A stretch of 64,000 nt of DNA, taken from Ornithinimicrobium sediminis (GTDB taxonomy: Bacteria > Actinomycetota > Actinomycetes > Actinomycetales > Dermatophilaceae). The position numbers were made by a program, and so were the translations under genes. Location of the stretch: NCBI RefSeq assembly GCF_021272345.1, contig NZ_JAJSDQ010000001.1, positions 744,001 to 808,000 of the forward strand, read 5' to 3'. Of this stretch, positions 1 to 64,000 are shown piece after piece (positions within the stretch are counted from its first letter, which is position 1; every line of letters begins with the position of its first letter). Under the pieces are notes generated by a model, which saw only the letters and a list, made by a program, of their open reading frames with translations, was not told where the DNA came from and made no database searches.

Positions 1-1
1 G

Positions 2-1957
2 CTCTTCAAGTCGGGCCTGTTCATGATGGTCGGTGTCATCGACCACGCCGCCCACACGCGTGACATGCGGCGCCTGCCCGCCCTGCGCAAGCAGATGCCG
101 TGGTCCTTCGCCACCGTCGTCATCGGCTGTGCCTCGATGGCGGGCATCCCACCCCTGCTCGGGTTCGTCTCCAAGGAGTCCGTCTTCACGGCGATGCGCG
201 AGGCCCCCGGCCCGGAGTGGGTCGGCTGGGTCGCGCTCTTCGGCGCCGTGGGCGCCTCGGTGCTGACGTTCTCCTACTGCGCCAAGATCGTCTTCGGCGC
301 GTTCGTCGACGGGGACCGCGACGACCTGGTGGTCCACGAGGCGCAGCCGTCACTGCTCCTGCCCGCGGCGCTGCCGATCCTCGTCGGTGTCCCCCTCGCT
401 TTGGTCGCCGGGGTCTTCGACAACCCTGTGGGGTATGCCGTGCAGGCCGCCCTGCCGGACAGCGACCACGAGCCGCACTTCGTGCTCTGGCACGGGCTGG
501 TGCTCGAGCTGTGGCTGTCGCTGGCGATCATCGCGATCGGCGTGGTCCTCATCATGAACCGCGCCAGGCTGCGGCCCTGGGCCGAGCACGACACCCTCAA
601 CGTCGACGGCGCCTGGGTGATGACGCGGATGGTGCGGGCCTTCAGCACCCTGGGCCGGGTGCTGGTGCGCACGGTCCGGGCCGACCACCCGACCCGGCAC
701 GTCGCCCCCCAGTTCGTCATGCTCAGCCTGGTCGCCCTGGCGGGCCTGCCCGCCGTGATGGCCACCGTCGGCCTGGCTCCGCTCACCCCCGACCTGGGCC
801 GGCCGATCGACCTCATGATGCTGGTGGTCATCGTGGGCGGCGTGGTCGGCATGGTCACGGCCGACTCCCGGCTGGCCGCGACCGTCAGCCTCTCGGCCGT
901 CGGCGTCGCCGTCACCGTGCAGATCTTCTCCCTCGGGGCACCCGACGTCGGCCTGACCCAGCTGCTGGTCGAGGCGCTCACCATCCTGATGATCATGCTC
1001 GTGCTGCAGAAGCTGCCGCTGCGCTTCGGGCGGGCCCCGCGCTACGGCCAGTCCGCCGCCGCGGGGCTCGCGATCGTCACCGGTGTGGCAGCCGGCCTGC
1101 TGACCTGGGGGCTCACCGGCCGGCGCGAGCGCACCCCGGTCGCGCAGTACTACCTCAACGAGGGCCCGGCCGAGACCGGTGGCGACAACATCGTCAACAC
1201 GATCCTGGTGGAGTTCCGCGCCCTGGACACCCTCGGCGAGCTCGCCGTGCTCGGCATGGCCGGCGTTGCCATCATCGCCGTGCTCTCCACCATCCGGGAC
1301 GCCGACGTCGACCCGCCCCCGGAGGACGACCGCAGCTACGTGCCCGCGCCCGAGGTGCCGCTGCGCGAGCCCGGCTCCACCGCATACCGCGCGATCACCG
1401 AGTCGTGGAGCAACGCCGTGCCGCTGCAGCTGCTCGTGCGCACCGTCACCCCGCTGCTGGCCCTCATCTCCGCGATCCTCTTCCTGCGCGGGCACAACGC
1501 CCCCGGCGGTGGCTTCATCGCCGCGCTCGTCGGCTCGGCCATCGTGGCCCTGGTCTACCTGTCCGCGGCCAAGGACCACGCCGTCGGGCCCCCGCGCCTG
1601 CCCGTCTACCTCATCGCCGGGGGCGTGCTCACGGCGATCGGGGCCGGGCTCTACGGCCTGGCGTTCCTGGGCTCCTTCCTGGAGCCGCAGAGCGGCTACA
1701 TCCTCGGCTACGGCGTGGGCACCGCGCTCATCTTCGACGTCGGGGTCTACCTCGCCGTGCTGGGGCTGGTCATCTGTGCGTTCAACCTGCTCGGCGCCGC
1801 ACAGGACAGCAAGGAGCACACCCGGGAGCGCGCGGACCAGCAGGTGGAGGGCGAGCTGCCCGGGCCGATGGACACCGTGCGCGGCGAGCGCCCGGGGCGC
1901 AGGACCACATTCCTGGCCTCCGACACCCCACCCCTCAGAGGAGGCGGACGCCGATGA
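2..1957 (+). CDS. mrpA: Mrp cation/proton antiporter subunit A with fused B domain (5' truncated)
   Basis: Large membrane subunit of the multisubunit Na+/H+ (K+/H+) antiporter, related to the NuoL/ND5 proton-pumping subunits. The gene enters the window already open: the frame runs from base 2 through FKSGLFMMVGVIDH, which is inside the family's conserved ND5-like core, so the ATG at 23 is internal and not the start. About 651 residues are visible, nearly all in hydrophobic helices. The last 170 or so residues, from LLVRTVTPLLALISAILFLR through GHNAPGGGFIAA, match the MnhB/MrpB family, so A and B are fused as is usual in actinobacteria. The stop overlaps the mrpC start (ATGA). It acts in the cytoplasmic membrane in pH and sodium homeostasis. 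The N-terminal third lies outside the window. Confidence 0.93.
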   Translation, partial: LFKSGLFMMVGVIDHAAHTRDMRRLPALRKQMPWSFATVVIGCASMAGIPPLLGFVSKESVFTAMREAPGPEWVGWVALFGAVGASVLTFSYCAKIVFGAFVDGDRDDLVVHEAQPSLLLPAALPILVGVPLALVAGVFDNPVGYAVQAALPDSDHEPHFVLWHGLVLELWLSLAIIAIGVVLIMNRARLRPWAEHDTLNVDGAWVMTRMVRAFSTLGRVLVRTVRADHPTRHVAPQFVMLSLVALAGLPAVMATVGLAPLTPDLGRPIDLMMLVVIVGGVVGMVTADSRLAATVSLSAVGVAVTVQIFSLGAPDVGLTQLLVEALTILMIMLVLQKLPLRFGRAPRYGQSAAAGLAIVTGVAAGLLTWGLTGRRERTPVAQYYLNEGPAETGGDNIVNTILVEFRALDTLGELAVLGMAGVAIIAVLSTIRDADVDPPPEDDRSYVPAPEVPLREPGSTAYRAITESWSNAVPLQLLVRTVTPLLALISAILFLRGHNAPGGGFIAALVGSAIVALVYLSAAKDHAVGPPRLPVYLIAGGVLTAIGAGLYGLAFLGSFLEPQSGYILGYGVGTALIFDVGVYLAVLGLVICAFNLLGAAQDSKEHTRERADQQVEGELPGPMDTVRGERPGRRTTFLASDTPPLRGGGRR

Positions 1958-2292
1958 CCTGGGTCATCCCGATCACCATCGGCGTGCTCGTCGCCGGCGC
2001 CGTCTACCTCATGCTGCAGCGCGGCATGGTGCGCATCATCTTCGGCCTGGCGCTGCTGGCGCACGCCGCGAACCTCATCCTGCTCAGCGCCGGGGTGAGC
2101 GCCTGGCGCGGCGAGCCTCTGGGTGACCGCCTCGACCTCGAGACGGCCGCGGACCCGCTCCCCCAGGCGTTCGTGCTCACCGCCATCGTCATCGCCTTCG
2201 CGATCACCGTCTTCATGCTGGCGCTCGCCGTCATCGGCCACAACGACGACACCAAGCGCATGCCCGAGACCGGGGAGTTCCACGACCGATGA
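1954..2292 (+). CDS. mrpC: Mrp antiporter subunit C
   Basis: Small membrane subunit (112 residues) related to NuoK/ND4L. Three hydrophobic helices are visible: one at the N terminus, one around IIFGLALLAHAANLILLSAG, and one in the C-terminal FVLTAIVIAFAITVFMLAL stretch. The length is normal for MrpC/MnhC. The start ATG overlaps the mrpA stop, and its own stop overlaps the mrpD start (ATGA), so the operon is translationally coupled. MrpC is required for assembly of the whole Mrp complex in characterised systems. Identification rests on sequence character together with its fixed position between A and D. Confidence 0.93.
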   Translation: MTWVIPITIGVLVAGAVYLMLQRGMVRIIFGLALLAHAANLILLSAGVSAWRGEPLGDRLDLETAADPLPQAFVLTAIVIAFAITVFMLALAVIGHNDDTKRMPETGEFHDR

Positions 2293-4825: not shown

Positions 4826-5419
4826 TCAGGGCTCGGCGTGCAGGGCCGCCATCTCGGCCTCCATGACGACCTCCTCGTCGGCGTCGAGGCGCACGTGGGC
4901 CAGCAGCGCGACCAGCACCCGCAGCGCCGAGGTGGCACGCTCCCCCCACGAGGAGAGATAGCTGAACTGCCACCACCACAGGGCCTCGGTGCTCGCTCCG
5001 GACTCGAAGTGCCGCAGACCGTGCGAGAGGTCGGAGGCGATCGTCACGACGTCGTTGGACAGGCTGCCGCTCACGACGTGGCCGAGCAGCACCGGGTCGG
5101 GCACCTCGGCATACTCGTCGAGACCGGCCAGCAGGGTCGCCAGCCCGTCGTGCAGCAGGTCGAGGTCGGGGTCCGGGCCGTGGTCCGGCTCGAAGCGCTC
5201 GGCCGGCACCACGTCGACCATGGCGCCGAGGCGCGCCCCGGCCAGCTGCACCTGGGACAGCGCCAGCAGCAGCAGCGGCAGCACCGCCTGGGGGGCCTGG
5301 CCGGTGGACACCTCACGCACCGCCAGCAGGTAGGTGCGTGCCTGCTCGGCCGTCTCGTCGGCGAGCCCGGACAGCTCGTGGCGCAGCGCCTTCTCCGCGC
5401 TCTCGTCGGTGTCATCCAT
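4826..5419 (-). CDS. DUF5063 domain-containing protein
   Basis: 197-residue acidic, largely helical, soluble protein with no signal peptide or membrane segment. Its sequence pattern (LLLALSQVQLAGARLGAM, then LWWWQFSYLSSWGERATSAL) and its position directly after recR are those of DUF5063, an actinobacterial family of unknown function that habitually sits beside recR. The start ATG lies 28 bp after the recR stop, so it is probably the last gene of the dnaX-plsC-recR transcription unit. A repair link is only inferred from the neighbourhood. Confidence 0.8.
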   Translation of the reverse strand: MDDTDESAEKALRHELSGLADETAEQARTYLLAVREVSTGQAPQAVLPLLLLALSQVQLAGARLGAMVDVVPAERFEPDHGPDPDLDLLHDGLATLLAGLDEYAEVPDPVLLGHVVSGSLSNDVVTIASDLSHGLRHFESGASTEALWWWQFSYLSSWGERATSALRVLVALLAHVRLDADEEVVMEAEMAALHAEP

Positions 5420-6789: not shown

Positions 6790-6800
6790 CTCGTCCTTCC

Positions 6801-9032
6801 TCAGCGTGCGCTGTCGTCGTCGACCGCGATCACCGTACCGCCGAGGACACTCTCGATCACCGGCTGACCGACCGCGCTCGAGGTCTGCAGGTCCTCGTCG
6901 TCGGCCTCCGGCGTGTCAGGTGCCGCAGCAGGGCGCGGGGCGGCGGGGCCTGCGGCGCTGACGGCCACGGGCTCGGCCCCGCTGACGGCCCACGCAGGCG
7001 CGTCGCCGGAGGCGCGCCGCTCCCAGTCCTCCTCCGGCGGATCGGCCGGCGGTGGCTCCTCCATCGGTGGCGGCCCGTCGTGCGGGACGCCACGGCCCGT
7101 GGTGCCCCGGCTGCCGCCCTGCTGTGCCTGGCCGCCGGCCGGCGCCTCGGCGCCCCGGGCCGGCTGGGACGGCCGACCTCCCTGCGACGGCTGGGTCCGG
7201 CCTCCCCGGGGTGCCTGCTGTCCCTGTCCGGGCGCGGTCCGGGCGTCGCCGGACACAGGCGGCCCCGTCCCGCGGCCACCGCGCCGCGCGTCGGGTGCTG
7301 CCTCGGCGCCCGGGCTCACCCTGCTGTCGACCCGCGTGTCCAGCCCGATGGCCTCGATGAGGGCCTGACGCACGACCTCGGCGTGGTTGCCCCGCCGGAA
7401 GGTCTCGGCCTGGCCGGGTGTCGCGATCTCCAGGAGCAGCCGCTCGCCGTCGTAGTCGACCACCTGGGTGTTGACGGACACGAAGCTCCAGGTCACCCGG
7501 CGGATGCCCTTGACGGCGTCGAGCACCTCGGGCCAGTGCCGTCGCACGGCGTCGGTGTCGAGGTGCCCCGGGCCGGGGGCGGCCTCCGGGGTGGCCACCG
7601 GCTCGGCCGGGGGCTGCACGACCTCGGGGGAGACCTGCTCCGACTGGGACACGGGGCGCGGTGGCTCGGCGGCAGGCTGCTCCTGAGGACGCTCCGGCTC
7701 GGGTCGCATCTGCTCGGGGCGCGCCGGCTCGGGGCGCCCCTGGTGAGGATGCGCCTGCACGGGACGGCCCTGCTGAGGATGCTCCTGCTCGGGTCGGTCC
7801 CGGCCTCCGCCCGCCCGTGGCTCCGCGCGCGACGCAGGTGCACCGGCCGTCGGCGAGGAGCCGCCGGGACCCCCGGCGGCCAGCCGGCGCTCGATGCGGT
7901 CCAGGCGTGCGGCATACCCCTGCTCCCCCGCTGCCGCGGGCAGCAGCAGGCGGGCGCACACCAGCTCCAGGAGCAGCCGGTAGGACACCGCCCCCGTCAT
8001 CTCGGCCAGCCCCCGGCTCACGATGTCGGCACACCGCGTCAGCGAGGCCGTGCCGTAGGCCGTGGCCTGGTGCCGCATCCGCTCCACCTGGTCCTCCGGG
8101 ACGCCCGGCAGCAGGCCCCCGATGCGCTCACCGACCGCAGAGACCACGATGAGGTCGCGGTAGCGGTCCAGCAGGTCCTCCACGAACCGGCGCGGGTCGT
8201 GGCCCGACTCCATGACCTTGTCCACCTGCCGGAACACGCCGGCGGCGTCCTGCGCGGCCACGGCGTCGACGACGGCGTCGAGCAGCTCCAGGTCGGTGAA
8301 GCCCAGCAGCGCGGCCGTGCGCTCGTAGGTCAGGCCCTCGTCACCGGCGCCGGAGATGAGCTGGTCGAGCACGGAGAGCGAGTCACGCACCGACCCACCG
8401 CCGGCCCGGGTCACGAAGGAGAGCACGCCCGGCTCCAGCTGCACCCCCTCGGTGGCGCAGACCTGCTCGAGGTAGGTCGTGAGCCGCTGCGGCGGCACGA
8501 GGTGGAAAGGGTAGTGGTGGGTGCGCGACCGGATCGTGGACAGCACCTTCTCGGGCTCGGTCGTGGCGAAGATGAACTTCACGTGGGGCGGTGGCTCCTC
8601 GACGACCTTGAGCAGGGCGTTGAAGCCGTGCGAGGTCACCATGTGCGCCTCGTCGATGATGTAGACCTTGTAGCGCGCCTGGGCGGGCCCGAAGGCAGCG
8701 CGCTCGCGCAGCTCGCGGGCGTCGTCCACACCCCCGTGGCTGGCAGCGTCGATCTCGATGACGTCCACCGACCCCGCGCCCCCTCGGGCGAGCGCCACGC
8801 ACGACTCGCACTCCCCGCACGGCTCGGGCGTGGGGCCCTGGGCGCAGTTGAGACAGCGCGCCAGGATGCGCGCGCTGGTGGTCTTGCCGCAGCCGCGCGG
8901 CCCGCTGAACAGGTAGGCGTGGTTGACCCGGCCGGTGCGCAGCGCCTGCATCAGCGGCTCGGTGACGTGCTCCTGCCCGATGACGTCGGCGAAGCTCTCG
9001 GGCCGGTAGCGGCGGTACAACGCGGTGCTCAC
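6801..9032 (-). CDS. dnaX: DNA polymerase III subunit gamma/tau
   Basis: Clamp-loader ATPase. From the GTG start before [13 protein letters not shown] the protein is 743 residues. Walker A is [11 protein letters not shown] (residue ~45), followed by the zinc-binding cysteines (CLNC, CGECESC), Walker B DEAH (~120) and the SRC-like sensor region. The HolB-like collar ends near residue 360. Residues ~385-500 are a proline/glutamine/glutamate-rich linker with degenerate repeats, and another disordered stretch follows a short folded region near 510-590. A further in-frame GTG lies at 9056, but it precedes the conserved N terminus and has no support. No slippery heptamer for a gamma form is evident. 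Confidence 0.96.
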
Positions 9033-9098: not shown

Positions 9099-11330
9099 TC
9101 AGCCCACCCGCAGCACCGTCATCCGGTGCGCCGCGCGGGTCAGCACGACGTAGAGCACGCGCGCCCCGCCCGGTGACTCCCGCACGATCTCGTCGGGGTC
9201 CAGCACGACCGTCGCGTCGTACTCCAGACCCTTGGACGACAGCGGGTCCACCAGCACGACCCGCCCGTCGTGAGCCGTCACCACGGGAGCCGCCACGCTC
9301 CACCAGCGCTGGGGGCTGATGACCGCGATGGAGCCGTCGACCTCCTCCAGCAGCCCGGCGACGGCCTGCGAGGCCTGAGGGACGAGGTCCTGCGCCGTCA
9401 CCGTCCGCTCGACCGGCAGGTGACCGGTCTCGCGGACCGCGTCGGGGATGTCCGCGTCCGGCACGTGCTCGCGGATCATCGCCTGCGCCAGGTCGAAGAT
9501 CTCGCGGGCGTTGCGGTAGTTGGTGCTCATGTGGAACGCGCGCCGGGGTGCGGAGCCGAAGGCCTCCTCCCGGGCCCGGCTCGCCTCGGGCAGGTCCGGC
9601 CAGGAGGCCTGCGCCGCGTCGCCGACGACGGTCCAGGAGGCCCAGCGCCCGCGCCGGGCCAGCATCCGCCACTGCATGGGGGACAGGTCCTGCGCCTCGT
9701 CGACGAGCACGTGGGCGAACTCGTCGGCCGGCGTGACGCGCGAGGCCAGCAGCCGCTCGCGCGGGTCGTGCGACACCCGCTGGTATGCCGTGCGCTGCCC
9801 GTCCGCGTCCAGCGCGAAGTCGCCCTCGTCGGGCACGATGCGTCCGGTGCGCAGCGCCGGGACGCCGTGCTGTCCCACGTCGTCGAGCTCCTCGATCTCG
9901 TAGAAGCCCCGCTCCTCCTGCGGCAGGTCGACGACCGGGCCGAGGCGGGCTGCGAGCTCGTCCACCAGCGCGATGTCGGCCACCGACCACTCCCCGGTGC
10001 GCAGCGCGACCTGCAGGGACCCGGCCACCAGCCCGGCCTCCTCGGGCGTGAGGTCACGGGCCCCGACCCGGCGCGCCGTCGTCTCGTCGGCCAGCCACAG
10101 CAGCACCTCCCGGGGGTCGACGGGCCGCCACCACGCGCGGGTGAAGGCCTCCACCTCGGAGGAGTCGGTGAACTGGTCGATGAACTCGTCGCGCTCGCCC
10201 TGGCGCACCTGCAGCCAGGTGCGCTCGGCGAGGGCGCGCACCGCCGCGTCGTGGGAGCTGTTGCGCTGGTGGTGGCGCAGCACCTGCCGGCGCACGCGCT
10301 CGAGCTCGTCGGCCTCCAGACGCACGGCGTGGCCGGCCACGAAGCAGCGCAGCACGGTGGGTGCGTCGGGGGCGGGCTCGCGCACGAGGCGGGACAGCAC
10401 CGGCCGCATCCGCAGCGAGCCCTTGACGGCTGCCGCAGCCGGGGCGTCGTTGCGGGTCGCGGTGATGCCGCCGACGACGTCACCCACCGAGCGCAGGGTG
10501 ACGCTCTCCTCCCCCAGGGAGGGCAGCACCCGCTCGATGTAGGCGGTGTAGGCCGCCGAGGGGCCGACCACCAGGACCCCTCCGGACTCGAAGCGCCGCC
10601 GGTCGGAGTAGAGGAGGTAGGCCGCCCGGTGCAGGGCCACCACCGTCTTGCCGGTGCCCGGGCCGCCGGTGATCTCGGTGACCCCGCGGGCAGGGGCGCG
10701 GATGGCCTCGTCCTGGTGCTGCTGGATCGTCGCGACGATGTCGCGCATGCGCTGGCCGCGGCTGCGGGTCAGGGCCGCCATGAGGGCGCCGTCGCCGACG
10801 ACCACGATGTCGTCGGGGGCCTCGGCCACCATCAGGTCGTCCTCGACCCCGACGACGGTCTCCCCGAGGCAGCGCAGGACGCGCCGGCGGACGACGCCCT
10901 GGGGGTCGACCGGGGTGGCGCGGTAGAACGGCGCCGCGGCGGGGGCGCGCCAGTCGACGACCAGCGGCTCGTAGTCGTCGTCGCGGACCCCCAGCCGCCC
11001 GACGTAGCGCAGCTCGCGCTCCGCCTCCGGCCCGGGGTGGTCGAGGTCGAGACGGCCGAAGACGAGACCCTCGTGCTGGCCCTGCAGGGAGGCACGGCGG
11101 CGGGTCGCGTTGTAGACCAGGGCGTCGCGCTCGAACAGGCCGGCCATCTCCTCCTCGCGCGGGTCGCCGGTGCCCTTGCGCTCCGTCTGGCCACGCGCCA
11201 TCCCCTCCGCGTGCACCAGGTCGACCCGGGCGGCCGCCTTGGCCAGCTCGGTGTAGACCCGGTCGACGTGAGCCTGCTCGTGGGCGATCTCGGCCGCCAC
11301 CGCAGCCCGCACCTCGGCACTCACCAGCAT
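9099..11330 (-). CDS. HelD/HelR-type RNA polymerase-associated superfamily 1 helicase
   Basis: 743-residue UvrD-like ATPase of the actinobacterial HelD/HelR type. The first ~70 residues are helical and charged, as in the family's coiled-coil arm that enters RNA polymerase. Walker A is ITGGPGTGKTVVALHR (~230) and Walker B is HVLVDEAQDLSP (~565). The C-terminal motif VVLTRAAHRMTVLRVG closes the helicase core. Known family members dislodge stalled or antibiotic-bound RNA polymerase, and HelR confers rifamycin tolerance in some actinobacteria. Which subtype this is cannot be settled here. A GAGAGGA ribosome site precedes the ATG. The gene ends 66 bp before dnaX begins on the same strand. Confidence 0.88.
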   Translation of the reverse strand: MLVSAEVRAAVAAEIAHEQAHVDRVYTELAKAAARVDLVHAEGMARGQTERKGTGDPREEEMAGLFERDALVYNATRRRASLQGQHEGLVFGRLDLDHPGPEAERELRYVGRLGVRDDDYEPLVVDWRAPAAAPFYRATPVDPQGVVRRRVLRCLGETVVGVEDDLMVAEAPDDIVVVGDGALMAALTRSRGQRMRDIVATIQQHQDEAIRAPARGVTEITGGPGTGKTVVALHRAAYLLYSDRRRFESGGVLVVGPSAAYTAYIERVLPSLGEESVTLRSVGDVVGGITATRNDAPAAAAVKGSLRMRPVLSRLVREPAPDAPTVLRCFVAGHAVRLEADELERVRRQVLRHHQRNSSHDAAVRALAERTWLQVRQGERDEFIDQFTDSSEVEAFTRAWWRPVDPREVLLWLADETTARRVGARDLTPEEAGLVAGSLQVALRTGEWSVADIALVDELAARLGPVVDLPQEERGFYEIEELDDVGQHGVPALRTGRIVPDEGDFALDADGQRTAYQRVSHDPRERLLASRVTPADEFAHVLVDEAQDLSPMQWRMLARRGRWASWTVVGDAAQASWPDLPEASRAREEAFGSAPRRAFHMSTNYRNAREIFDLAQAMIREHVPDADIPDAVRETGHLPVERTVTAQDLVPQASQAVAGLLEEVDGSIAVISPQRWWSVAAPVVTAHDGRVVLVDPLSSKGLEYDATVVLDPDEIVRESPGGARVLYVVLTRAAHRMTVLRVG

Positions 11331-12690: not shown

Positions 12691-12717
12691 CTCATGTCCG
12701 GCGCTAGGGTCGTCGGT

Positions 12718-21316: not shown

Positions 21317-21354
21317 CCTCCCGCGCCGACCCGCGCCCCCGGCATACCAGCTCA

Positions 21355-43076: not shown

Positions 43077-43165
43077 ACCTCTCCCCGTGGGTGGCCGGCC
43101 TGCTGTCCCTGGACAGTATGCCGTCCGCCCAGGTCGCAGGCCCGCCCGCCACCCGGGGAGCCCGG

Positions 43166-45733: not shown

Positions 45734-45799
45734 GTCGTGCCGTCCCCTCTCGTGTCGCGTCGGCAGTCGCGTGGTCGCTGTCTGTGCAACCTGCTCAGA

Positions 45800-45820
45800 G
45801 TTGAGTCTATTCCGCTCAAC
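45800..45820. promoter_or_regulatory. HAIR element (HspR operator) upstream of clpB
   Basis: GTTGAGT-N7-GCTCAAC; the known HAIR consensus is CTTGAGT-N7-ACTCAAG. The arms extend to a perfect 9 bp (AGAGTTGAG at 45797 against CTCAACTCT ending 45823). It lies in the 133-bp region between clpB and the divergent macro-domain gene, overlapping a possible clpB -10 box (TAGACT on the minus strand). Confidence 0.9.
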
Positions 45821-45866
45821 TCTCGGTCGGGCGGCGACCTCGGCGGACCGGCGACATACTGGTCGC

Positions 45867-46454: not shown

Positions 46455-46478
46455 CGTATGCCCGGGGAGGAGGACCCC

Positions 46479-49011: not shown

Positions 49012-50214
49012 TCAGCGGAACGCCTGCTGCCCCGTGAGCGCCTGGCCCACGACCAGGGTGTGCATCTCGGTGGTGCCCTCGTAGGTGACCACGGACTCGA
49101 GGTTGGCGGCGTGCCGCAGCGGGGAGTAGTCGGCGCTGATGCCGTTGGCCCCCAGCACGCTGCGGCACTCGCGGGCGACCGCCAGGGCACGCCGGGCGTT
49201 GGTGAGCTTGCCCAGGCTCACCTGCTGCGGGCGCAGCAGGCCCGCGTCCTTGAGCCGGCCCAGCTGGCGGGCCAGCAGCATGCCGGTGACGTAGTCGGCG
49301 GTCAGGTCGGCGAGCTTGGCCTGGGTCAGCTGGAAGCCCGCGATGGGGCGCCCGAACTGGTGGCGCGTGCCGGCATACGAGATCGCCGTCTCCAGTGCGT
49401 CCCGCGCCGCGCCCATCGCCCCGAACACGATGCCGAAGCGCGCCTCGGTCAGGCAGCCCAGGGGCCCCCGCAGACCCTCGGCGCCGGGCAGCACCGCCGC
49501 GGCGGGCAGACGCACCCCGTCGAGCACGAGCTCGCTGGTGACCGACGCACGCAGGGACAGCTTGCCGGTCATCAGCGGCGCCGAGAAGCCGGCGGTGTCG
49601 GTGGGCACGACGAAGCCCCGGACTCCCTCGTCGGTCTGCGCCCAGACCACGGCGACGTCGGCCACCGAGCCGTTGGTGATCCACATCTTGGTGCCGTCGA
49701 GCACCCAGTCGCCCCCGTCGCGCCGCGCCCGGGTGCGCATGCTGCCCGGGTCGGAGCCGTGGTCGGGCTCGGTGAGCCCGAAGCAGCCGACGAGCTCGCC
49801 CCGCGCCATCCCCGGCAGCCACTGCTCCTGCTGCTCCGTGCTGCCGTAGGCGTGGATCGCGTGCATCGCCAGCGATCCCTGGACGCTCACCAGCGAGCGC
49901 AGGCCGGAGTCGACCGCCTCGACCTCGGTGCACACCAGGCCGTATGCCGTCGCGCTCGCGCCGGCGCAGCCGTGACCCTCCAGGTGCATGCCCAGGACGC
50001 CCAGCCGGCCGAGCTCACGGGCCAGCTCGCGCACCGGCAGCTCCCCCGCGACATACCACTGCCCGATGTGCGGGCGGGCGTGCTCGGCCAGGAACTCGCG
50101 CACGCTGGCCCGCATCGCCAGGTCCTCCTCGGACAGGCCGTGGTCGAGCCCGCCGAGCTCGTCGGGGGTCCAGATGCGCGTGGGGGTGACCGGGCGCTGG
50201 GCGGAGGTGTCCAC
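49012..50214 (-). CDS. acyl-CoA dehydrogenase, glutaryl-CoA dehydrogenase-like
   Basis: 400-residue FAD-dependent acyl-CoA dehydrogenase. FAD and substrate motifs: FGLTEPDHGSDPGSMRTRAR (~135), KMWITNGSVADVAVVWAQ (~165), and the catalytic Glu in VVTYEGTTEMHTLVVGQALTG (~375), whose YEGT/GQA-TG form is that of the glutaryl-CoA/short-branched group. The GTG at 50214 gives the normal length. Likely role in lysine/tryptophan or aromatic breakdown; whether it decarboxylates cannot be decided. Divergent from the HAD-IIA gene with about 20-30 bp between starts. Confidence 0.9.
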   Translation of the reverse strand: MDTSAQRPVTPTRIWTPDELGGLDHGLSEEDLAMRASVREFLAEHARPHIGQWYVAGELPVRELARELGRLGVLGMHLEGHGCAGASATAYGLVCTEVEAVDSGLRSLVSVQGSLAMHAIHAYGSTEQQEQWLPGMARGELVGCFGLTEPDHGSDPGSMRTRARRDGGDWVLDGTKMWITNGSVADVAVVWAQTDEGVRGFVVPTDTAGFSAPLMTGKLSLRASVTSELVLDGVRLPAAAVLPGAEGLRGPLGCLTEARFGIVFGAMGAARDALETAISYAGTRHQFGRPIAGFQLTQAKLADLTADYVTGMLLARQLGRLKDAGLLRPQQVSLGKLTNARRALAVARECRSVLGANGISADYSPLRHAANLESVVTYEGTTEMHTLVVGQALTGQQAFR

Positions 50215-51595: not shown

Positions 51596-52633
51596 TCAGT
51601 CGGCGCCGGCCCGGGCGAACACCTCGGCCCGTGGGTCGAACCCGGCCTCGTCCGCCCGCAGCGCCTCGACGGCCTCCTTGGCGGCGTCGGACAGCCGCTG
51701 CGGCACGACGATCTGCACCTTGGCCAGCAGGTCGCCCGTGCCGTGCTTGGTCTCGATGCCGCGGCCCTTGACGCGCAGGACCCGGCCCGAGGGCGTGCCT
51801 GCGGCGACCTTGACCTTGACCGGCCGGCCGTCCAGGGTCGGCACGCTCACGGTCGCGCCGAGGGCCGCCTCGGCGAAGGTGACGGGCAGGTCGACGGTCA
51901 GGTTGTTGCCGTCCCGTCCGAAGACCGGGTGCGGCTCGACCCGGACGGTCAGCAGCAGGTCGCCCGCCGGTCCGCCGGCGTCCCCGGGGCGGCCCTTGCC
52001 GCGCAGCCGGATCTTCTGGCCGTCCTTCACCCCGGCCGGGATGCGGGTGGTGATGCGTCCGCCCTCGGGGGTGCCGAGGGTGACGGTGTCACCGGTCGCG
52101 GCCTGGCGGAAGGTCAGGGTCGTGCGGGCCTCGACGTCGCGGCCGGGGCGTGGCCCGCGCGGTGCGCCGAAGCCCATCGGGCCCTGGCCGCCCCGCCCAC
52201 CGGGGGCCCCGGCACCGGCGAAGCCGCCGAGCAGGTCCTCCAGGTTGATGCTCTCGCCGCCCGCGGTGCTGAAGTGCACGTTCTGACGGCCTCCGCCGCC
52301 GCCCCCGCCGAACATCTGCGCGAAGACGTCCTCGAAGCCGCCGGCGCCGCCGGCCGCGCCGGGGCCGCCGGCGCCGGCGGTGAACCGGGCACCCCCGCGC
52401 GACATGGCGCGGACGGCGTCGTACTGCTTGCGCTGCTCGGGGTCGGACAGCACGGCATACGCCTCGCCGATGTCCTTGAACTTCTGCTCCGCCACGGTGT
52501 CCCCCGGCTTGGAGTCGGGATGCCACTGGCGCGCGAGCTTGCGGTAGGTCTTCTTGATCTCGGCCGCGTCGGCGTCCTGGGCGACCCCCAGGATCGCGTA
52601 GAAGTCCTTGTCGAACCAGTCCTGACTCGCCAT
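51596..52633 (-). CDS. dnaJ: DnaJ-type co-chaperone lacking the zinc-finger domain
   Basis: 345 residues. The J domain ([20 protein letters not shown], with the catalytic HPD in [10 protein letters not shown]) spans residues ~8-75. A long Gly/Phe-rich segment follows ([20 protein letters not shown]), then the two C-terminal beta-barrel domains. There is no cysteine in the protein, so the CxxCxGxG zinc-binding domain of type I DnaJ is absent, making it a type II (CbpA-like) J protein. Start ATG with GAGGAGGAGG upstream. Stimulates DnaK ATPase. A perfect 21-bp hairpin separates it from grpE. Confidence 0.93.
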
Positions 52634-52734: not shown

Positions 52735-53481
52735 CTAGGCCGGGTCGGCGACGGACACCCGGGCCGGCCGCACCACCCGGTCACCCACCTTGAAGCCGGG
52801 CTGCATGACCTGGACGACGGTCGTCTCGGTCGCGCCCTCGGGCAGGTCGGCCCCGGGCAGGTGCATGAGCGCCTCGTGCAGCGCGGGGTCGAACGTCTCC
52901 CCCGGTGCGCCGAACTGTTCCACGCCGAAGCGCCCGAGCGTCGCCGCGAGCTTGTCGGCGATCGCCGCGAACGGCCCGTCGGTGAGGTCACCGTGCTCAC
53001 GCGCGGAGTGGATGTCGTCCAGCACCGGCAGCAGCGCCTCGACGACACCGCCGACCGCCACCTCCTTGTCGCGGGCCCGGTCCCGGTCCACGCGACGCCG
53101 GTAGTTGACGTACTCCGCCTGCAGCCGGCGCAGGTCCTCCAGGCGCTCCGCCGCCACCAGCGTGTCGGGGTGCTCCTCGCCCTGCTCGGGGTATGCCGTG
53201 TCGCCGACCTCGCCCGCGGGCGCCGCCTGCCCCGGCTCGCCGGCCTCGGGCTGCTGCCCGTCGGGCTGCGACCCCTCCGGGTGCGACACCTCGGGGTGCT
53301 CCGCCTCCGGCGAGGCCTCGGCCTGCGCGTCGCTCTGCTGCGAGGCCTGGGCCTCGGCGACCGTCTCGCGGACCTGGCCGGTCTGCGGGTCGACCTTGCG
53401 CTTGTCACGGACGACGGGCCCGGTGGGGCCGTCCTCGTGCTGAGGGTCGGCCCCACCGGCTCCCTGGCCCTGCTGGGTCAC
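52735..53481 (-). CDS. grpE: nucleotide exchange factor GrpE
   Basis: 248 residues. An unusually long, acidic, disordered N-terminal ~110 residues (many Glu/Gln/Pro) precedes the GrpE core: the helical [20 protein letters not shown], then [17 protein letters not shown], and the C-terminal beta domain ([20 protein letters not shown]). It releases ADP from DnaK. The start overlaps the dnaK stop (ATGA). Confidence 0.96.
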
Positions 53482-55379
53482 TTGGTGTCCTCGTCGTCGA
53501 CGACCTCCGCGTCGACGACATCGCCGTCCTGCTCGTCGCTGCCACCCGGCTGCGCGCCCTCGGCGCCGGTGGCACCGGCACCGCCGGCAGCGCCCGCCTG
53601 GGCCTGCTCGGACTCGGCCTGCGCGGCATACATGGCGGAGCCCATCTTCTGGCTCTCGGTGGAGAGGGTCTCCATCTTCGCCTTGATGTCGTCATTGGAC
53701 GCGCCCGACTCGGGAGCCAGGGCCGACTTGAGGTCGGCCAGGGCGGTGTCGACCGGGCCGCGGGCCTCGTCCGGCACCTTGTCGCCGGAGTCGGCCAGGA
53801 ACTTCTCGGTGGAGTAGACCAGCTGCTCCGCGGTGTTGCGGGTCTCGGTCTCCTCGCGCCGCTTCTTGTCCTCCTCGGCGTGCGCCTCGGCGTCCTTGAC
53901 CATGCGCTCGATCTCCTCCTTCGGCAGCGCGGAGCCACCGGAGATCGTCATCGACTGCTCCTTGCCGGTGCCGCGGTCCTTGGCGGAGACGTGCACGATG
54001 CCGTTGGCGTCGATGTCGAAGGTCACCTCGATCTGCGGCACGCCACGGGGGGCCGGGGCGATGCCGGTGAGCTCGAAGTTGCCGAGCAGCTTGTTGTGCT
54101 GCGCGATCTCGCGCTCACCCTGGTAGACCTGGATGCCGACCGAGGGCTGGTTGTCGCTGGCCGTGGTGAAGACCTCGGAGCGCTTGGTCGGGATGGCCGT
54201 GTTGCGCTCGATGAGCTTGGTCATGATCCCGCCCTGGGTCTCGATGCCCAGGCTCAGCGGGGTGACGTCGATGAGCAGCACGTCCTTGCGGTCGCCCTTG
54301 AGCACACCGGCCTGCAGGGCGGCGCCGACGGCGACGACCTCGTCCGGGTTGACGCCCTTGTTGGGCTCCTTGCCGGTCATCTTCTTGACCAGCTCGGCGA
54401 CGGCCGGCATACGGGTCGAGCCGCCGACGAGCACCACGTGGTCGATGTCGGCCAGGTTGATGCCGGCGTCCTTGATGACCTGGTCGAAGGGGGCCTTGGT
54501 GCGCTCCAGCAGGTCCTGCGTCATCTGCTCGAACTGGGCGCGGGAGAGCGTCTCGTCCAGGTGGATCGGGCCGTTCTCGCCCATCGAGAGGTACTGCAGG
54601 TTGATGCCGGTGCTGGTGGAGCTGGACAGCTCCTTCTTGGCCTGCTCGGCCGCGTCGCGCAGCCGCTGCATCGCGATCTTGTCGTTGGACAGGTCGGTGC
54701 CGGTCGTGTTCTTCACCGTGGTCAGCAGGTGCTTGACGATGCGCTCGTCCCAGTCGTCACCGCCCAGCTTGTTGTCACCGTGGGTGGCCCGGACCTGGAT
54801 GGTGGCGAAGCCGTCCTCGGAGTCCTTGCCGACCTCCAGCAGGGAGACGTCGAAGGTGCCGCCGCCGAGGTCGAAGACGAGGATCTGCTCGTCCTCCTTG
54901 CCCTTGTCCAGCCCGTAGGCGAGCGCCGCGGCGGTGGGCTCGTTGACGATGCGCAGGACCTTCAGGCCCGCGATCTCGCCGGCCTCCTTGGTGGCCTGGC
55001 GCTCGGCGTCGTCGAAGTAGGCCGGGACCGTGACGACCGCGTCGGTCACCGGCTCGCCGAGGTAGGACTCGGCGTCGCGCTTGAGCTTCATCAGGATGCG
55101 CGCGCTGATCTCCTGCGCGGTGAAGCTCTTGCCGTCGATCTCCGAGCTCCAGTCGGTGCCCATGTGGCGCTTGACCGAGCGGATGGTGCGGTCGACGTTG
55201 GTCACCGCCTGACGCTTGGCGATCTCGCCGACCAGGACCTCACCGTTCTTGGCGAAGCTGACGACGGAGGGGGTGGTGCGTCCACCCTCGGCGTTGGCGA
55301 TGATCTCCGGCTCGCCACCGTCGAGGACGGCAACGGCGGAGTTGGTGGTGCCCAGGTCGATGCCTACTGCACGTCCCAT
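53478..55379 (-). CDS. dnaK: molecular chaperone DnaK (Hsp70)
   Basis: 633 residues. ATPase domain: [79 protein letters not shown]. Substrate-binding domain ([16 protein letters not shown], written here as [12 protein letters not shown]) and a Gly/Ala-rich lid tail ending [19 protein letters not shown] lies ~9 bp before the ATG. Head of the dnaK-grpE-dnaJ-hspR operon, controlled by a HAIR box at 55499-55519. Also the expected co-repressor of HspR. Confidence 0.98.
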
Positions 55380-56080: not shown

Positions 56081-58636
56081 ATGAGCGAAAGCCCCGGTCC
56101 GCAGGAGTGCATCCACGTCCTGGGCGCACGGCTGCACAACCTCCGTGACGTCGACGTGAGCATCCCGCGCAACCGGCTGGTGGCCCTCACCGGGGTCTCC
56201 GGCTCCGGCAAGTCGTCGCTGGCCTTCGGCACCATCCACGGTGAGGCCCAGCGGCGCTACTTCGACTCGGTGGCGCCCTTCGCGCGGCGGCTCATCCACA
56301 CCGCGCTCGACCCGCAGGTGCGCGACGTCACCGGGCTGCCGCCCGCGGTCGCGCTGGAGCAGCGGCGGGCCGGGGGCAGCGGCCGCTCCACGGTGGGCAC
56401 GGTGACCACGACCGGCAACACCCTGCGCATGCTGTTCTCCCGGTGCGGCGACTACCCCGCCGACGTGGCACCGATGGACTCCGACCACTTCTCGCCCAAC
56501 ACCGCGGTGGGCGCGTGCCCGGTGTGCTCGGGGCTCGGGGTCGTCCACGAGCCGACCGAGTCGTCGATGGTGCCCGACCCGGGCCTCAGCATCGCCGAGG
56601 GCGCCGTCGCCGCCTGGCCGGGAGCGTGGCAGGGCAAGAACTACCGCGACATCGTCGCCACCCTCGGTCATGACGTCGACGTGCCGTGGCGCGCGCTGCC
56701 GCAGGCCTCCCGAGACTGGATCCTGCACACCGAGGAGGAGCCCGTCGTCACCGTCGTGCCCGAGCGGGAGGCCGGCCGCATCCAGCGGCCGTACCAGGGC
56801 CGGTTCGCCAGTGCCCGGCGCTACCTCATGCGCACCCTGAGCGAGACGCGCAGCGCCACCCAGCGGGCACGGGCGCTGCGGTATGTCGTGAGCTCGCCCT
56901 GCCGGACGTGCGGGGGCCGGCGGCTGCGGCCGGAGGCGCTGCGCGTCACCTGTCAGGGCCTGGCCGTGGACGAGGCGAGCCGGCTCCCGGTCGCCGACCT
57001 GCTGCCCGTGCTCACCGGGAGGCTGGCGGTCCTCGACGCGGAGCATCCGCGCTCACGCTCCGGGGAGGGGTCCGGGAAGGGGGCCGGGCAGGAGCCCAGC
57101 GCCCGTGCCGAGGCCGAGCGGCTCCTGCTGCAGGATCTGACCGGCCGGCTCCAGGTGCTCGTCGACCTCGGCATCGGCCACCTCGACCTCGCGCGGCCGA
57201 GCACCTCCGTGTCGGCCGGCGAGCTGCAGCGCCTGAGGGTCGCCACCGCGGTGCGCTCGGGGCTCTTCGGTGTCGTCTACGTGCTCGACGAGCCGTCGGC
57301 CGGGCTGCACCCGCGGGACACCGAGGCGTTGCTCCGGGCGCTGCGGGGGCTGGTCGACGCCGGCAACTCGGTGCTGGTCGTCGAGCATGACATGGCCGTC
57401 GTCACCGCCTGCGACTGGGTGGTGGACGTCGGGCCGGGGGCCGGCTCCCAGGGTGGCCGGGTGCTGTGGTCCGGCCCGCTCGACGGCTTCCAGGACGTGC
57501 CCGGGTCCGTGACCGCGCGCTACCTCCACGACCCGGTGCACGCCACCGAGATCCGCCCCGCCGAGCCCTCGGCCGGCGCTCCGGCCGGCGTGACGGCATA
57601 CGTCGCACCGCGACCGCGCCGGGGCGAGCTGCGGGTCACCGGCATCGAGCGGCACACCCTGCACGACGTCGCCGTGACGCTGCCGCTCGGGGTGCTGACG
57701 GTGGTCACCGGCATCTCGGGGTCCGGCAAGACCTCGCTGCTGGACGCCGTCCACGACACGGTGGGGGCCCGCCTGGCCCGGGTCGAGGACCAGCCCGACG
57801 CCGCCGCGGAGGACGGGGACGGCGCCGCCCCGCCCGGCCCGGCCGAGACGTCGGTGCCCCGTCCCGGCGAGGCCTCGGCGACCGGTGAGGTCGTGCCCAC
57901 CCGGCTGGTGCGCATCACCCAGCAGCCCATCGGCCGGACGCCGCGGTCCAACCTCGCGACCTACACGGGGCTGTTCGACCACGTCCGCACGCTCTACGCG
58001 CGCACGGACCTGGCGCGCGAGCGGCACTACAAGGCCGGGCGGTTCAGCTTCAACGTCGCCGCCGGCCGCTGCGAGACCTGCCAGGGCGAGGGGCAGGTGT
58101 CCGTCGAGCTGCTCTTCCTGCCGGGCACGTGGTCGACCTGCCCCACCTGCCACGGCGCGCGCTACAACCCGGAGACCCTGGAGGTCACCTGGCAGGGGCT
58201 GAGCATCGCCGACGTCCTGGCCCTCACCGTCGCTCAGGCCCTCGACGTCTTCGCCGGGCAGCCGGCGGTGCACCGGGCCCTCGACGCGCTGGCGGCGCTC
58301 GGCCTGGGCTACCTGACCCTCGGGCAGCCGGCCACCGAGCTGTCCGGCGGCGAGGCGCAGCGCATCAAGCTGGCCTCGGAGCTGCAGACCGAGCGCCGCT
58401 CCCCCACCCTCTACCTGCTCGACGAGCCCACCTCGGGCCTGCACCCCGCCGACGTGCACCGGCTGCTCCGCCAGCTGCACGCGCTGGTCGACGCCGGCCA
58501 CACGGTGGTGCTCGCCGAGCACGACGCGGCGGCGCTGGCCACCGCGGACTGGGTCGTCGAGCTGGGCCCGGGAGCCGGCGACGCGGGCGGGCGGGTGGTC
58601 GCCACCGGCCCCCCGTCCGGGCCGGGGACCTCCTAG
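56081..58636 (+). CDS. UvrA-like ABC ATPase (UvrA2-type excinuclease homologue)
   Basis: 851 residues, shorter than true UvrA (about 950). Two ABC ATPase modules: first Walker [14 protein letters not shown] (~40) with signature [13 protein letters not shown] (~380) and Walker [14 protein letters not shown]; second Walker [13 protein letters not shown] (~550) with signature [16 protein letters not shown] (~765) and [13 protein letters not shown]. Zinc-type cysteine pairs are present (CPVC, CRTC, CETC/CPTC). The missing length falls in the UvrB-binding/insertion region, as in UvrA2 paralogues tied to DNA-damage tolerance or drug resistance. Its stop TAG overlaps the convergent gene's stop (CTAG). 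Confidence 0.85.
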
Positions 58637-59700: not shown

Positions 59701-59795
59701 GTCCTCACGGTATGCCGTGGGACCTTCGACCCTGGTCAATGGTGTTGACACCGGCGAAGGATGGGGCCACCACATCCCCTACGGACGGAGCAGAT

Positions 59796-61437: not shown

Positions 61438-61941
61438 TCAGCCGCCGGCGTCCGTCAGCACGACCCGGTAGGCGAGCAGTGACACGTGAGGCAGGGGCCG
61501 CCAGTCCCGCTCCGGGGTGCGCACGAAGCCCAGCCGCACGTAGAGCCGGTGGGCGGCCGCCATCCACTCGGCGCTGGACAGCGCCACCGCGGCATACCCC
61601 TCCTCCCCCGCACGCTGCAGGCAGGCGCGCACCAGCAGCTCCCCGACCCCACGCCCGCGCGCCTGCGGGTCCACGCCCAGGCTGCGGAACTCCCCCTCGT
61701 CGACGCCGGCGACCTCACGGTGCGACGACCCGGCCGGGCACCAGGTCACCGTGCCCACCAGCGTGTCGCCGTCCACCGCGACGAGCACCACGGAGTCGGC
61801 CGCGCGGCCGGGGGCGTCGCGCAGGTCCTCCAGGTAGGGGTCGCCCGGCTGCACCACCCCGTCGGCCAGGTAGGCGGTGACCACCAGCTCACCGGCCGCG
61901 GGCAGCTCCTCGGGGCGGGCGGGGCGCACGGTCACCGTCAC
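61438..61941 (-). CDS. GNAT family N-acetyltransferase
   Basis: 167 residues. The acetyl-CoA motif A is FRSLGVDPQARGRGVGELLV (~85-105) and the motif B region AHRLYVRLGFVRTPERDW. Typical single GNAT domain of full length. The acceptor is unknown. It diverges from the ArsO-like flavoprotein gene, with only 31 bp between starts. Confidence 0.9.
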   Translation of the reverse strand: MTVTVRPARPEELPAAGELVVTAYLADGVVQPGDPYLEDLRDAPGRAADSVVLVAVDGDTLVGTVTWCPAGSSHREVAGVDEGEFRSLGVDPQARGRGVGELLVRACLQRAGEEGYAAVALSSAEWMAAAHRLYVRLGFVRTPERDWRPLPHVSLLAYRVVLTDAGG

Positions 61942-61972: not shown

Positions 61973-63043
61973 GTGAGTGCCGGTGGGGTCGACGTCGTGG
62001 TCGTCGGTGGCGGGCAGGCCGGGCTGGCGACCGCCTTCTACCTGCGCCGGGCCGGCCTCGACTTCGTGGTGCTCGACGACCAGCCGGAGCCAGGGGGCGC
62101 GTGGCGGCACACCTGGCCCTCGCTGCGGCTGTTCTCCCCTGCTGCCTACTCCTCGCTGCCCGGGTGGCAGATGCCGCATACGGGCCCCGACAACCCCGAC
62201 GCCGCGCATGTGGTCGGCTACCTGGCCCGCTACGAGCAGCGCTACCACCTGCCGGTGCACCGGCCGGTGCACGTCGAGGCGGTGTGCCGGACGGACGGCG
62301 GCTACCGGGTGGAGACCGACCACGGCACCTGGCAGGCCCCGGTGGTCGTGAGCGCCACGGGCAGCTGGTCGCAGCCGCACTGGCCCACCGTGCCGGGCCA
62401 GCGGGAGTTCCTCGGCCGGCAGACCCACAGCGCCCGCTACGCCGGACCGCAGCCGTATGCCGGGCGCCGGGTGGTGGTCGTGGGCGGCGCCAACAGCGGG
62501 GCCCAGGTCGCCGCGGACCTCAGCGGGACGGCCGAGGTCACCTGGTGCCTGCACGGCCCGCCGCGCTACCTGCCCGACGACGTCGACGGCCGCGCGCTCT
62601 TCGCCGCGGCCACCGCGCACGTCAAGGCCCTGGCCTCGGGCGGCGAGGGGACCGGCGGGGTGGCCTCGCTGGGCGACATCGTGGCCGTGCCCCCGGTGCG
62701 GGAGGCCCGGGAGGCCGGGCTGCTGTCCCCCCGTCCCATGTTCGCGCGGTTCACCCCGCACGGTGTGCTCTGGCCCGACGGCACCGAGCTCCAGGTCGAC
62801 GACGTCATCTGGTGCACCGGCTTCCGGCCGGCGCTGCGCCACCTGCGACCCCTGGGCCTGCGCGGGCCGGACGGGCGCATCGCCACGCGCGGCCCGCTCG
62901 TGCCCGGCTCACCCGGGCTGTTCCTGGTCGGCTACGGCGACTGGACCGGCCCCGCGTCGGCCACCCTGATCGGTGTGGGCCGCACGGCGAAGTGGACCGT
63001 CGAGCGCATCCAGGAGCACCTGGGCGAGCCGGGCTCGCGGTGA
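61973..63043 (+). CDS. FAD/NAD(P)-dependent monooxygenase-like protein (ArsO-like)
   Basis: 356 residues from a GTG. FAD Rossmann motif VVVVGGGQAGLATAFYLRRA, the group-specific PSLRLFSPAAYSSLPGWQMP segment, a second NAD(P)H Rossmann motif RVVVVGGANSGAQVAADLS (~165), and a C-terminal LVGYGDWTGPASATLIGVGR. The SLRLFSPA..SSLPGW block is what I associate with ArsO-type flavin monooxygenases found in some arsenic gene clusters; no ars genes are visible here, so the arsenic link is weak. The stop overlaps the next gene's GTG (GTGA). Confidence 0.75.
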   Translation: MSAGGVDVVVVGGGQAGLATAFYLRRAGLDFVVLDDQPEPGGAWRHTWPSLRLFSPAAYSSLPGWQMPHTGPDNPDAAHVVGYLARYEQRYHLPVHRPVHVEAVCRTDGGYRVETDHGTWQAPVVVSATGSWSQPHWPTVPGQREFLGRQTHSARYAGPQPYAGRRVVVVGGANSGAQVAADLSGTAEVTWCLHGPPRYLPDDVDGRALFAAATAHVKALASGGEGTGGVASLGDIVAVPPVREAREAGLLSPRPMFARFTPHGVLWPDGTELQVDDVIWCTGFRPALRHLRPLGLRGPDGRIATRGPLVPGSPGLFLVGYGDWTGPASATLIGVGRTAKWTVERIQEHLGEPGSR

Positions 63044-63518: not shown

Positions 63519-63555
63519 GGTCTGCCGCCCGCTCGGGGTGAGCGGACGGCAGACC
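63519..63555. terminator. stem-loop terminator downstream of yceI gene
   Basis: Arms 63519-63534 (GGTCTGCCGCCCGCTC) and 63540-63555 pair at 15 of 16 positions with a 5-nt loop. It lies 12 bp beyond the minus-strand YceI stop. The 227-bp gap between 63340 and 63566 otherwise shows nothing convincing. Confidence 0.78.
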
Positions 63556-63566
63556 AGGGAGAGGGC

Positions 63567-64000
63567 TCAGACGTTGCGGATCGCGGAGATCTCGATCTCG
63601 AGGGTGATCTTGTCGGAGACCAGCACGCCGCCGGTCTCGAGCGCGGCGTTCCAGGTGATGCCGAAGTCGGAGCGCAGGACGGTGGTGCTGCCCTCGAAGC
63701 CGACGCGCTGCAGGCCGAACGGGTCGGTGGCACCTCCGGCGTACTCGAAGTCGATGGTGACGGGCTTGGTGGTGCCCTTGATCGTCAGGTCGCCCGTGAC
63801 GCGCAGGGTCTCGGCGTCGACCGGCACGACCTCGGTGGAGGCGAAGGTGATGGTCGGGTAGGTCTCGGCCTCGAAGAAGTCGTTGGTGCGCAGGTGGCCG
63901 TCACGGTCGGTGTTGTTGGTGTCGATGCTGGCGACCTGGATGGTCACCGCGATGTCGGTGTCCGCGAGCTGCTCGCCGGCGGTGACACTGCCCTCGAACT
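63567..64000 (-). CDS. YceI family protein (5' end beyond window)
   Basis: Lipocalin-like YceI domain that binds isoprenoid or amphiphilic ligands. Visible residues run from FEGSVTAGEQLADTDIAVTI onward, through RDGHLRTNDFFEAETYPTIT, the FASTEVVPVD and LTIKGTTKPVTIDFEYAG strands, and FGITWNAALETGGVLVSDKI near the end. The reading frame is open to the last base of the window, so the N terminus (and any signal peptide) is not visible; the GTG at 63947 is internal. About 144 residues are present of an expected ~180. Confidence 0.92.
   Translation of the reverse strand, partial: FEGSVTAGEQLADTDIAVTIQVASIDTNNTDRDGHLRTNDFFEAETYPTITFASTEVVPVDAETLRVTGDLTIKGTTKPVTIDFEYAGGATDPFGLQRVGFEGSTTVLRSDFGITWNAALETGGVLVSDKITLEIEISAIRNV

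Follow-up and report, generated by a model that had tools for sequence, protein, structure and literature searches.

Introduction

Highly repeated DNA words have been described in several bacterial groups. In the Neisseriaceae, the DNA uptake sequence (DUS) occurs as eight dialects with a CTG core (PMC3630211), and the uptake signal sequences (USS) of Neisseria and the Pasteurellaceae have been found in terminators, where close inverted pairs form hairpins (PMC1852404). Other words include HIP1 (highly iterated palindrome 1) of cyanobacteria, and the Chi sequence, read during recombination. In actinobacteria, the competence apparatus has been described as a Flp/Tad pilus together with ComEA and ComEC (PMC4322843). 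The present analysis concerns a non-palindromic octamer, GTATGCCG, over-represented in a 64,000-nucleotide stretch of Ornithinimicrobium sediminis (contig NZ_JAJSDQ010000001.1, positions 744,001 to 808,000 of the forward strand; hereafter the window), as well as related words found in other actinobacteria. Both the word and its dialects are plainly present. On the strength of sequence comparisons, we put at about even the chance that GTATGCCG is a lineage dialect of a non-palindromic 8–10 bp self-recognition (DNA uptake) word present in several actinobacterial lineages.

The Word in the O. sediminis Genome

A first-pass annotation of the window had drawn attention to the heptamer GTATGCC, counting 14 copies in this orientation and 18 as GGCATAC on the plus strand. 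An exact count gave the same two numbers (32 in total, with 5.4 expected from a base-composition model), and each of the ten positions it named is 0 to 7 bases away from a real site. The unit it proposed was one base too short: the next base is G in 31 of the 32 heptamers, and the octamer GTATGCCG is therefore the actual word. Its density is 0.48 per kb in the window, above the mean of 0.31 per kb for the genome, and close variants accompany it (GTATGTCG seven times, GTATGCGG six times). As had also been observed, TAT is a rare tyrosine codon in the called genes of the window (26 TAT, 314 TAC), and 16 of the 26 fall within GTATGCCG read in the sense of the gene. These genes hold 28 octamers, compared with a mean of 1.6 and a maximum of 7 in 200 synonymous-codon shuffles, and with 12.2 (maximum 20) under a tripeptide-preserving shuffle, a much tighter null with little freedom within 64 kb.

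The whole genome (G000; 3,529,222 bases in 16 contigs) contains 1102 copies of GTATGCCG (549 + 553 in the two orientations), compared with 130 (60 + 70) of a reversed control, and GTATGCC occurs 588 + 590 times, compared with 145 + 149 for the reversed pattern. A word-rich, one-contig genome (G164) was sampled as 20 stretches of 20 kb, in which 304 sites were found, 151 forward and 153 reverse, with no one-strand run along the chromosome. Both orientations are alike, without polarity, in six other genomes as well, and the strand totals of whole genomes are balanced for the family counts of GTATGCCG and for the GTACGNCG and GGATGCCG counts described below. The consensus in G164 extends to GTATGCCGYG, and no A/T-rich extension was seen in the flanks of the word in these stretches. 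Single mismatches at positions 4 to 7 amount to 37 in G164, beside the 304 sites, and to 65 beside 89 perfect sites in stretches of the O. sediminis genome; in G164 and G166, near-variants of several kinds are scarce relative to the word.

The strand balance bears on another suggestion of the first-pass annotation, a chromosome-organisation site, which would make the word a target of a chromosome-organising or translocating protein (a nucleoid or segregation protein, or one like FtsK, which reads FtsK orienting polar sequences, KOPS). FtsK-type translocases read 8-bp words, and thousands of dispersed octamers would suit a protein of this type. An FtsK/KOPS site is ruled against by the absence of polarity, and the copy number drops to near background within genera (50 copies in G114, 37 in G008, 19 in G084), though G008 and G084 carry other words. 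The chromosome-organising explanation in its general form is accordingly held to be very unlikely.

When each reading frame and strand was compared with synonymous shuffles, GTATGCCG was found above expectation in all six combinations in both G164 and O. sediminis (observed and expected in G164: 121/10.3, 59/2.4, 23/0.3, 19/3.5, 16/1.8 and 11/0.1). The words of Nocardioides, G221, G064 and G083 are likewise enriched in six frames. As controls, the called genes of G221 contain a single GTATGCCG, and in G164 the main frames hold fewer GTACGNCG than expected, with two rare frames above expectation (5/0.8 and 7/3.3). Enrichment in all frames implies that codon-pair or amino-acid bias is not a sufficient cause. 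A mutational, repair or codon-pair bias producing a functionless word had some initial appeal, since GTACGCCG occurs twice in the window and GTATGCCG 31 times, which first hinted at deamination of GTACGCC. GTAYGCC (37 in the window) is, however, twice as frequent as CTAYGCC (18), so that conversion of GTACGCC alone is insufficient; these counts and the six-frame enrichment disfavour deamination. Given the six enriched frames, the copies in non-coding DNA and the few near-variants in G164 and G166, a functionless product of bias is highly improbable. Of the two origins that the annotation had offered, mutational drive thus loses ground, while a selected chromosomal word, written on both strands and in genes of unrelated function, is upheld.

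Three side observations were made in the O. sediminis stretches (the window and L002–L011). GTATGTCG appears there as a secondary form of the word (18 copies against 2.8), a second octamer, GGTGCGCA, is enriched (75 against 21), and so is the palindrome GTGCGCAC (32 against 7.3). GGTGCGCA is also prominent in G014, G114, G153 and G038.

Distribution in the Family and Order

Copies of GTATGCCG were counted in 186 genomes from 53 genera of one family (f1), which from its nearest named PurL relatives is probably Intrasporangiaceae/Dermatophilaceae. These relatives are Pedococcus, Terrabacter and an Intrasporangiaceae bacterium, with PurL identities of 71–76%. Genomes with at least 300 copies and 2.4 times the control were termed rich and those with at most 155 copies poor, thresholds that were set after seeing the table. 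By this measure, 110 genomes (31 genera) are rich, with balanced strands and up to 4724 copies, 67 (23 genera) are poor and nine are intermediate; the genera g1, g4, g13 and g33 contain both rich and poor members. The intermediate genomes (G002–G004, G017–G019, G025, G026 and G035) hold 189 to 295 copies, possibly words decaying after a change of dialect.

The first-pass annotation had pointed out that an equal excess in all actinobacteria of similar GC content would speak against a specific word. Among the 361 genomes of the other 19 families of the order, none comes near the rich range, the top total being 180 (reversed control 195). A few hold low counts that amount to 2 to 3 times the control, for instance 131 copies against 45 in the 9.4 Mb of G297.

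Other Words in Related Lineages

Words were sought in poor genomes with a synonymous-shuffle null applied to stretches of sequence, and control words were counted over whole stretches in a matrix of 18 genomes. Another word is present in ten of the 15 poor genomes sampled, in two of them weakly. Under the shuffle null, many ordinary words still stand at 2.5–4 times expectation in most genomes, and the case for GTACGNCG therefore rests on the control words of the matrix. There, GTACGNCG stands to its control CTACGNCG as 238:47 in G084, 128:30 in G015 and 139:54 in G090, more weakly as 89:45 in G014, and between 17:74 and 53:35 in the remaining 14 genomes. GTAGASCG occurs 55 times in 140 kb of G008, CGATGVGG 142 times in 80 kb of G083, and CGAAGGRG 106 times in 120 kb of G064 and 95 times in 80 kb of G092, with 6 to 61 copies elsewhere (61 in 400 kb). 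GGATGCCG was found 84 times in 80 kb of G178 and is weak in G153 (44 in 120 kb). A candidate in G114, GTAGCGGC (40 against 8.7), is uncertain. Separately, ACCTGTTC/GAACAGGT occurs 21 times against 3.4 in G153 (L160–L164 and L144), possibly as a regulator or SOS-type half site.

Named loci flanking PurL (at least 18 kb, with at least 12 kb called coding; the best 40 reported) show that genera beyond the family carry words too. CGGATGCC(G) is the word of Microbacterium, Cryobacterium, Agromyces and relatives. Five chromosomal loci of Nocardioides/Marmoricola contain GTACGNCG 209 times, compared with 40 for CTACGNCG, and GTACGNGG 8 times, compared with 23 for CTACGNGG. Streptomyces loci show a weaker word, CGTACGG(A), and no clear word was found in the pooled Arthrobacter-like loci, the single Cellulomonas locus or the single Brevibacterium locus. 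In whole genomes, GGATGCCG exceeds 1000 copies in 14 of the 15 members of family f19, with a top count of 4831 in 4.2 Mb; outside f19 no count is above 1481, which was reached in a genome of 9.4 Mb whose control stands at 681. GTACGNCG reaches 12,732 copies in a 5.3-Mb genome of f41 (reversed control 788) and 8353 in one of 3.2 Mb from f32 (reversed control 643). Judging from the named loci, f19 would correspond to Microbacteriaceae and f41 to Nocardioidaceae. Across the lineages that carry them, the words have a density of about 0.3–2.6 per kb.

Several of the words can be aligned on the pattern ..A.G..G, from which CGAAGGRG is distant, and several differ from GTATGCCG by one or two bases. 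Such differences bear on the explanation that the words are tied to DNA methyltransferases, being methylated and kept by repair or for self-marking. In cyanobacteria, HIP1 and alternate HIPs are highly iterated, have been replaced in some genomes and occur with matching methyltransferases (PMC4390886). The first-pass annotation had likened the word to HIP1, a comparison that holds for its high iteration and fails on symmetry, since HIPs are palindromic and the actinobacterial words are not. Dialects one or two bases apart would also be easier to reconcile with an inherited protein that drifts than with the exchange of one modification system for another. A methyltransferase-linked word is therefore considered quite unlikely.

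A shared enzyme of drifting specificity would yield dialects as well, as in the case of a Chi-like recombination hotspot read by a helicase–nuclease that changes in specificity from lineage to lineage (RecBCD, AddAB or the actinobacterial AdnAB). Chi motifs have been identified in few species, and different ones are suspected elsewhere (PMC8022716). The presence of RecC is unrelated to word status in the family (it is found in 48 of the 110 rich genomes and in 38 of the 67 poor ones), and no strand polarity is evident in G164, G084, G064, G178 or G083. The Chi of Escherichia coli is strongly polar and has a density of about 1 per 4.6 kb, which the 1–2.6 per kb of the richest genomes exceed. 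Recognition by RecBCD is rejected, given that RecC does not track the word, and a Chi-like hotspot of any kind is seen as rather unlikely. As an observation in its own right, RecC is patchy in the family, being found in 89 of the 186 genomes and varying both between and within genera.

Close Pairs, Non-coding Copies and Foreign DNA

In word-rich stretches, 28 of the 33 pairs of GTATGCCG at most 70 bp apart are inverted (p 7e-5 against equal odds), and several of these pairs, judged by eye and without folding, are terminator-like hairpins with the word in the stem. Inverted pairs also prevail for CGAAGGRG in G064 (5 of 6), for GGATGCCG in G235 (10 of 10) and G178 (5 of 5), with hairpins recognized by eye, and in the named Microbacterium loci (7 of 10). 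The density of the genome's own word is higher in non-coding than in coding DNA in G164, G064, G178, G235 and G221.

The poorest in sites of the 20 G164 stretches, a single island picked for that reason, has no site in its first 12.9 kb, where glycosyltransferase genes and a Mutator-family transposase are located; its two sites both lie on the glnE–glnA side. The Nocardioides plasmid pCHL, from a word-rich genus, shows no excess of that genus's word (GTACGNCG 42, CTACGNCG 48; one plasmid, with the host chromosome outside the comparison), which counts against a functionless bias as the origin of the word. The same plasmid contains an annotated tad-type cluster (L226, 13012–18127) and, elsewhere, a dprA gene.

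Competence Genes and Other Correlates

Genes of the competence apparatus were sought in a class set of 80 hand-chosen genomes (47 word-rich, 33 word-poor) and in the family. In the class set, ComEC is present in all 47 word-rich genomes and in 31 of the 33 word-poor ones; in the family, it is present in 180 of 186. The Tad-type ATPase TIGR03819 lies over its cut-off in 45 of 47 word-rich and 15 of 33 word-poor class genomes, in 0 of 17 from the small-genome family f40, and in 168 of 186 family genomes; any match is found in 184 of 186, a figure of little use given that sub-cut-off matches carry little information: 13 of 14 control genomes give one too. These results amount to a test passed, not a proof, as the genes have a wide distribution and f40 represents a single clade. 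Within the family, both genes were dropped as on/off correlates of the word, as they are nearly universal there. The type IVa pilus was also discarded as a correlate, since PilM_2, with matches in 7 of the 186 genomes of the family and 6 of them over cut-off, is unrelated to the word. In the comparison of tad proteins, the distance of G008 from its genus-mates proved about the same as that of members of other genera.

Features of the Window

The sites in the window are given in Table 1. Some other features of the window were recorded. A single open frame at 12694–15024, adjoining purL, matches PurD (residues 10–432) and PurC (469 onward) and is an apparent purD–purC fusion. The match of a ClpB homologue at 43166–46237 begins at residue 173, so that either the protein is extended at its N-terminus by about 170 residues or its start was called too early. 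The word TGAGGAT/ATCCTCA occurs 15 times in the whole window, with 3.2 expected from shorter words.

Table 1. Exact matches to the word in the window, with octamer check (coordinates are window positions).
Feature	Position	Strand
GTATGCCG site	433..440	+
GTATGCCG site (CGGCATAC on +)	5107..5114	-
GTATGCCG site	7910..7917	-
GTATGCCG site	9783..9790	+
GTATGCCG site	13920..13927	+
GTATGCCG site	14079..14086	-
GTATGCCG site	16036..16043	-
GTATGCCG site	16847..16854	+
GTATGCCG site	17224..17231	-
GTATGCCG site	17492..17499	+
GTATGCCG site	21340..21347	-
GTATGCCG site	25581..25588	-
GTATGCCG site	26227..26234	+
GTATGCCG site	26328..26335	-
GTATGCCG site	27534..27541	-
GTATGCCG site	36728..36735	+
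GTATGCCG site	39320..39327	+
GTATGCCG site	39874..39881	-
GTATGCCG site	43116..43123	+
Sole heptamer not an octamer (GTATGCC then C)	46456..46462	+
GTATGCCG site	47087..47094	-
GTATGCCG site	47821..47828	-
GTATGCCG site	49371..49378	-
GTATGCCG site	49942..49949	+
GTATGCCG site	52453..52460	-
GTATGCCG site	53191..53198	+
GTATGCCG site	53624..53631	-
GTATGCCG site	54405..54412	-
GTATGCCG site	57594..57601	-
GTATGCCG site	59710..59717	+
GTATGCCG site	61590..61597	-
GTATGCCG site	62455..62462	+

Comparison with Described Systems

The actinobacterial words resemble the DUS of the Neisseriaceae in being short, non-palindromic, present in thousands of copies on both strands and split into apparently clade-specific dialects (PMC3630211), and in forming inverted pairs within terminator-like hairpins (PMC1852404). 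They differ in that the hosts are Gram-positive and possess Flp/Tad pili in place of the type IVa kind (PilM was found in 7 of 186 family genomes), that the dialects span a class, that some words are degenerate (GTACGNCG) and that they are known here from sequence alone. With the USS of the Pasteurellaceae they share at least 1000 copies per genome and close inverted pairs capable of forming hairpins (PMC1852404, PMC12616744), whereas their core is shorter (8 bp), no A/T-rich extension was seen beside it in G164 and the hosts belong to a different phylum. The copy number of at least about 1000 that characterizes both DUS and USS is reached in O. sediminis itself (1102), in the family (4724), and by GGATGCCG (4831) and GTACGNCG (12,732); the equal orientations, the excess of close inverted pairs and the presence of transformation genes, as genes only, are further points of agreement. 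HIP1 is likewise a highly iterated octamer that has been lost or replaced in some relatives, but it is tied to methyltransferases (PMC4390886) and has a palindromic form that the actinobacterial words lack. Chi is similar as an over-represented, octamer-sized word varying between lineages (PMC8022716), while the actinobacterial words lack polarity and any link to RecC and are denser. The palindromic form of HIP1, the association of Chi with RecBCD and the polarity of Chi and KOPS were all found to be missing. The words thus appear to behave like DUS and USS in their copy number, balance between strands, inverted pairs and dialects; this is a likeness and not a claim of membership in that class.

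A Possible Uptake Word

The proposed explanation is that an inherited DNA-binding part of the Flp/Tad and ComEA/ComEC competence machine would prefer DNA that bears the word. Preferential uptake and recombination of word-bearing DNA from kin would lead to its accumulation, and drift in the specificity of the receptor would give rise to dialects, as in the DUS of the Neisseriaceae and the USS of the Pasteurellaceae. The data appear to be best accounted for by a machine found in almost all genomes whose specificity drifts. In a broader form, to which we give slightly less than an even chance, there may be a class-wide, inherited self-DNA language in Actinomycetes, consisting of an 8–10 bp uptake word, perhaps ancestrally GTACGNCG, which would be read by the Flp/Tad competence machine and would have split into dialects (GTATGCCG, GGATGCCG, GTAGASCG, CGATGVGG and CGAAGGRG) that would act as barriers to gene exchange.

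A number of results weigh against uptake as the function. We know of no uptake sequence in Gram-positive bacteria. ComEC and the Tad-type ATPase are common in poor genomes too and hardly discriminate, and the six family genomes without ComEC, all of them incomplete or fragmented, are all rich (G122, G128, G016, G051, G168 and G181). No gene specific to rich genomes, and with it no candidate receptor, was found in 20 tad loci (10 rich, 10 poor), of which that of G114 is a 3.8-kb contig only and in which component names come from reading of the sequences. Divergence of tad proteins did not clearly track dialect in pairs that switch dialect, many pairs not being comparable. Five of the 15 poor genomes show no clear word, G183, G021, G038 and G022 among them (26 kb called coding in G022), and both CGAAGGRG and CGATGVGG are several changes away from GTATGCCG. 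Variants with one mismatch at positions 4 to 7 have a frequency of 92 (G164) and 246 (G000) per Mb, compared with 17–42 per Mb in poor genomes; with near-variants more frequent where the word abounds, it falls short of perfect sharpness. In G084, GTACGNCG is enriched in only four of the six frames, and the spacing of the word is no more even than random. The excess of inverted pairs is weak in G221 (13 of 22), G084 (11 of 17), G083 (7 of 11) and Nocardioides (4 of 7), the O. sediminis genome provides one close pair, and non-coding density is below coding density in G000, ON_tad, G166/G100, Nocardioides and G083.

The first-pass interpretation is therefore supported in part only, as a selected word whose excess the codon-shuffled nulls (window genes; frames of G000 and G164) do not explain. 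Among the papers listed in searches of the open-licence PMC literature, none dealt with an actinobacterial uptake sequence or with a selected word of this kind that differs between close relatives, subscription journals and bioRxiv being outside the search. GTATGCC, GTATGCCG, CGGATGCC, GGATGCCG and GTACGNCG were searched there with their reverse complements (except that of CGGATGCC), and GGCATAC or CGGCATAC appeared in three papers, unrelated by title, and the other words in none.

Biological Significance

Even without a mechanism, a selected word with hundreds to thousands of copies in several actinobacterial groups, which close relatives write in different versions, is of note. Should it be an uptake word, natural switches of dialect, such as that between G084 and G085/G086 within one genus, would be useful for finding the receptor. 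If the words do serve uptake, they would constitute, to our knowledge, the first uptake-sequence system outside the Neisseriaceae and Pasteurellaceae and the first in Gram-positive bacteria, and would offer a practical tag for transforming strains that are resistant to genetic work. Natural transformation would then be common in soil and environmental actinobacteria, and the dialects would predict which lineages exchange genes.

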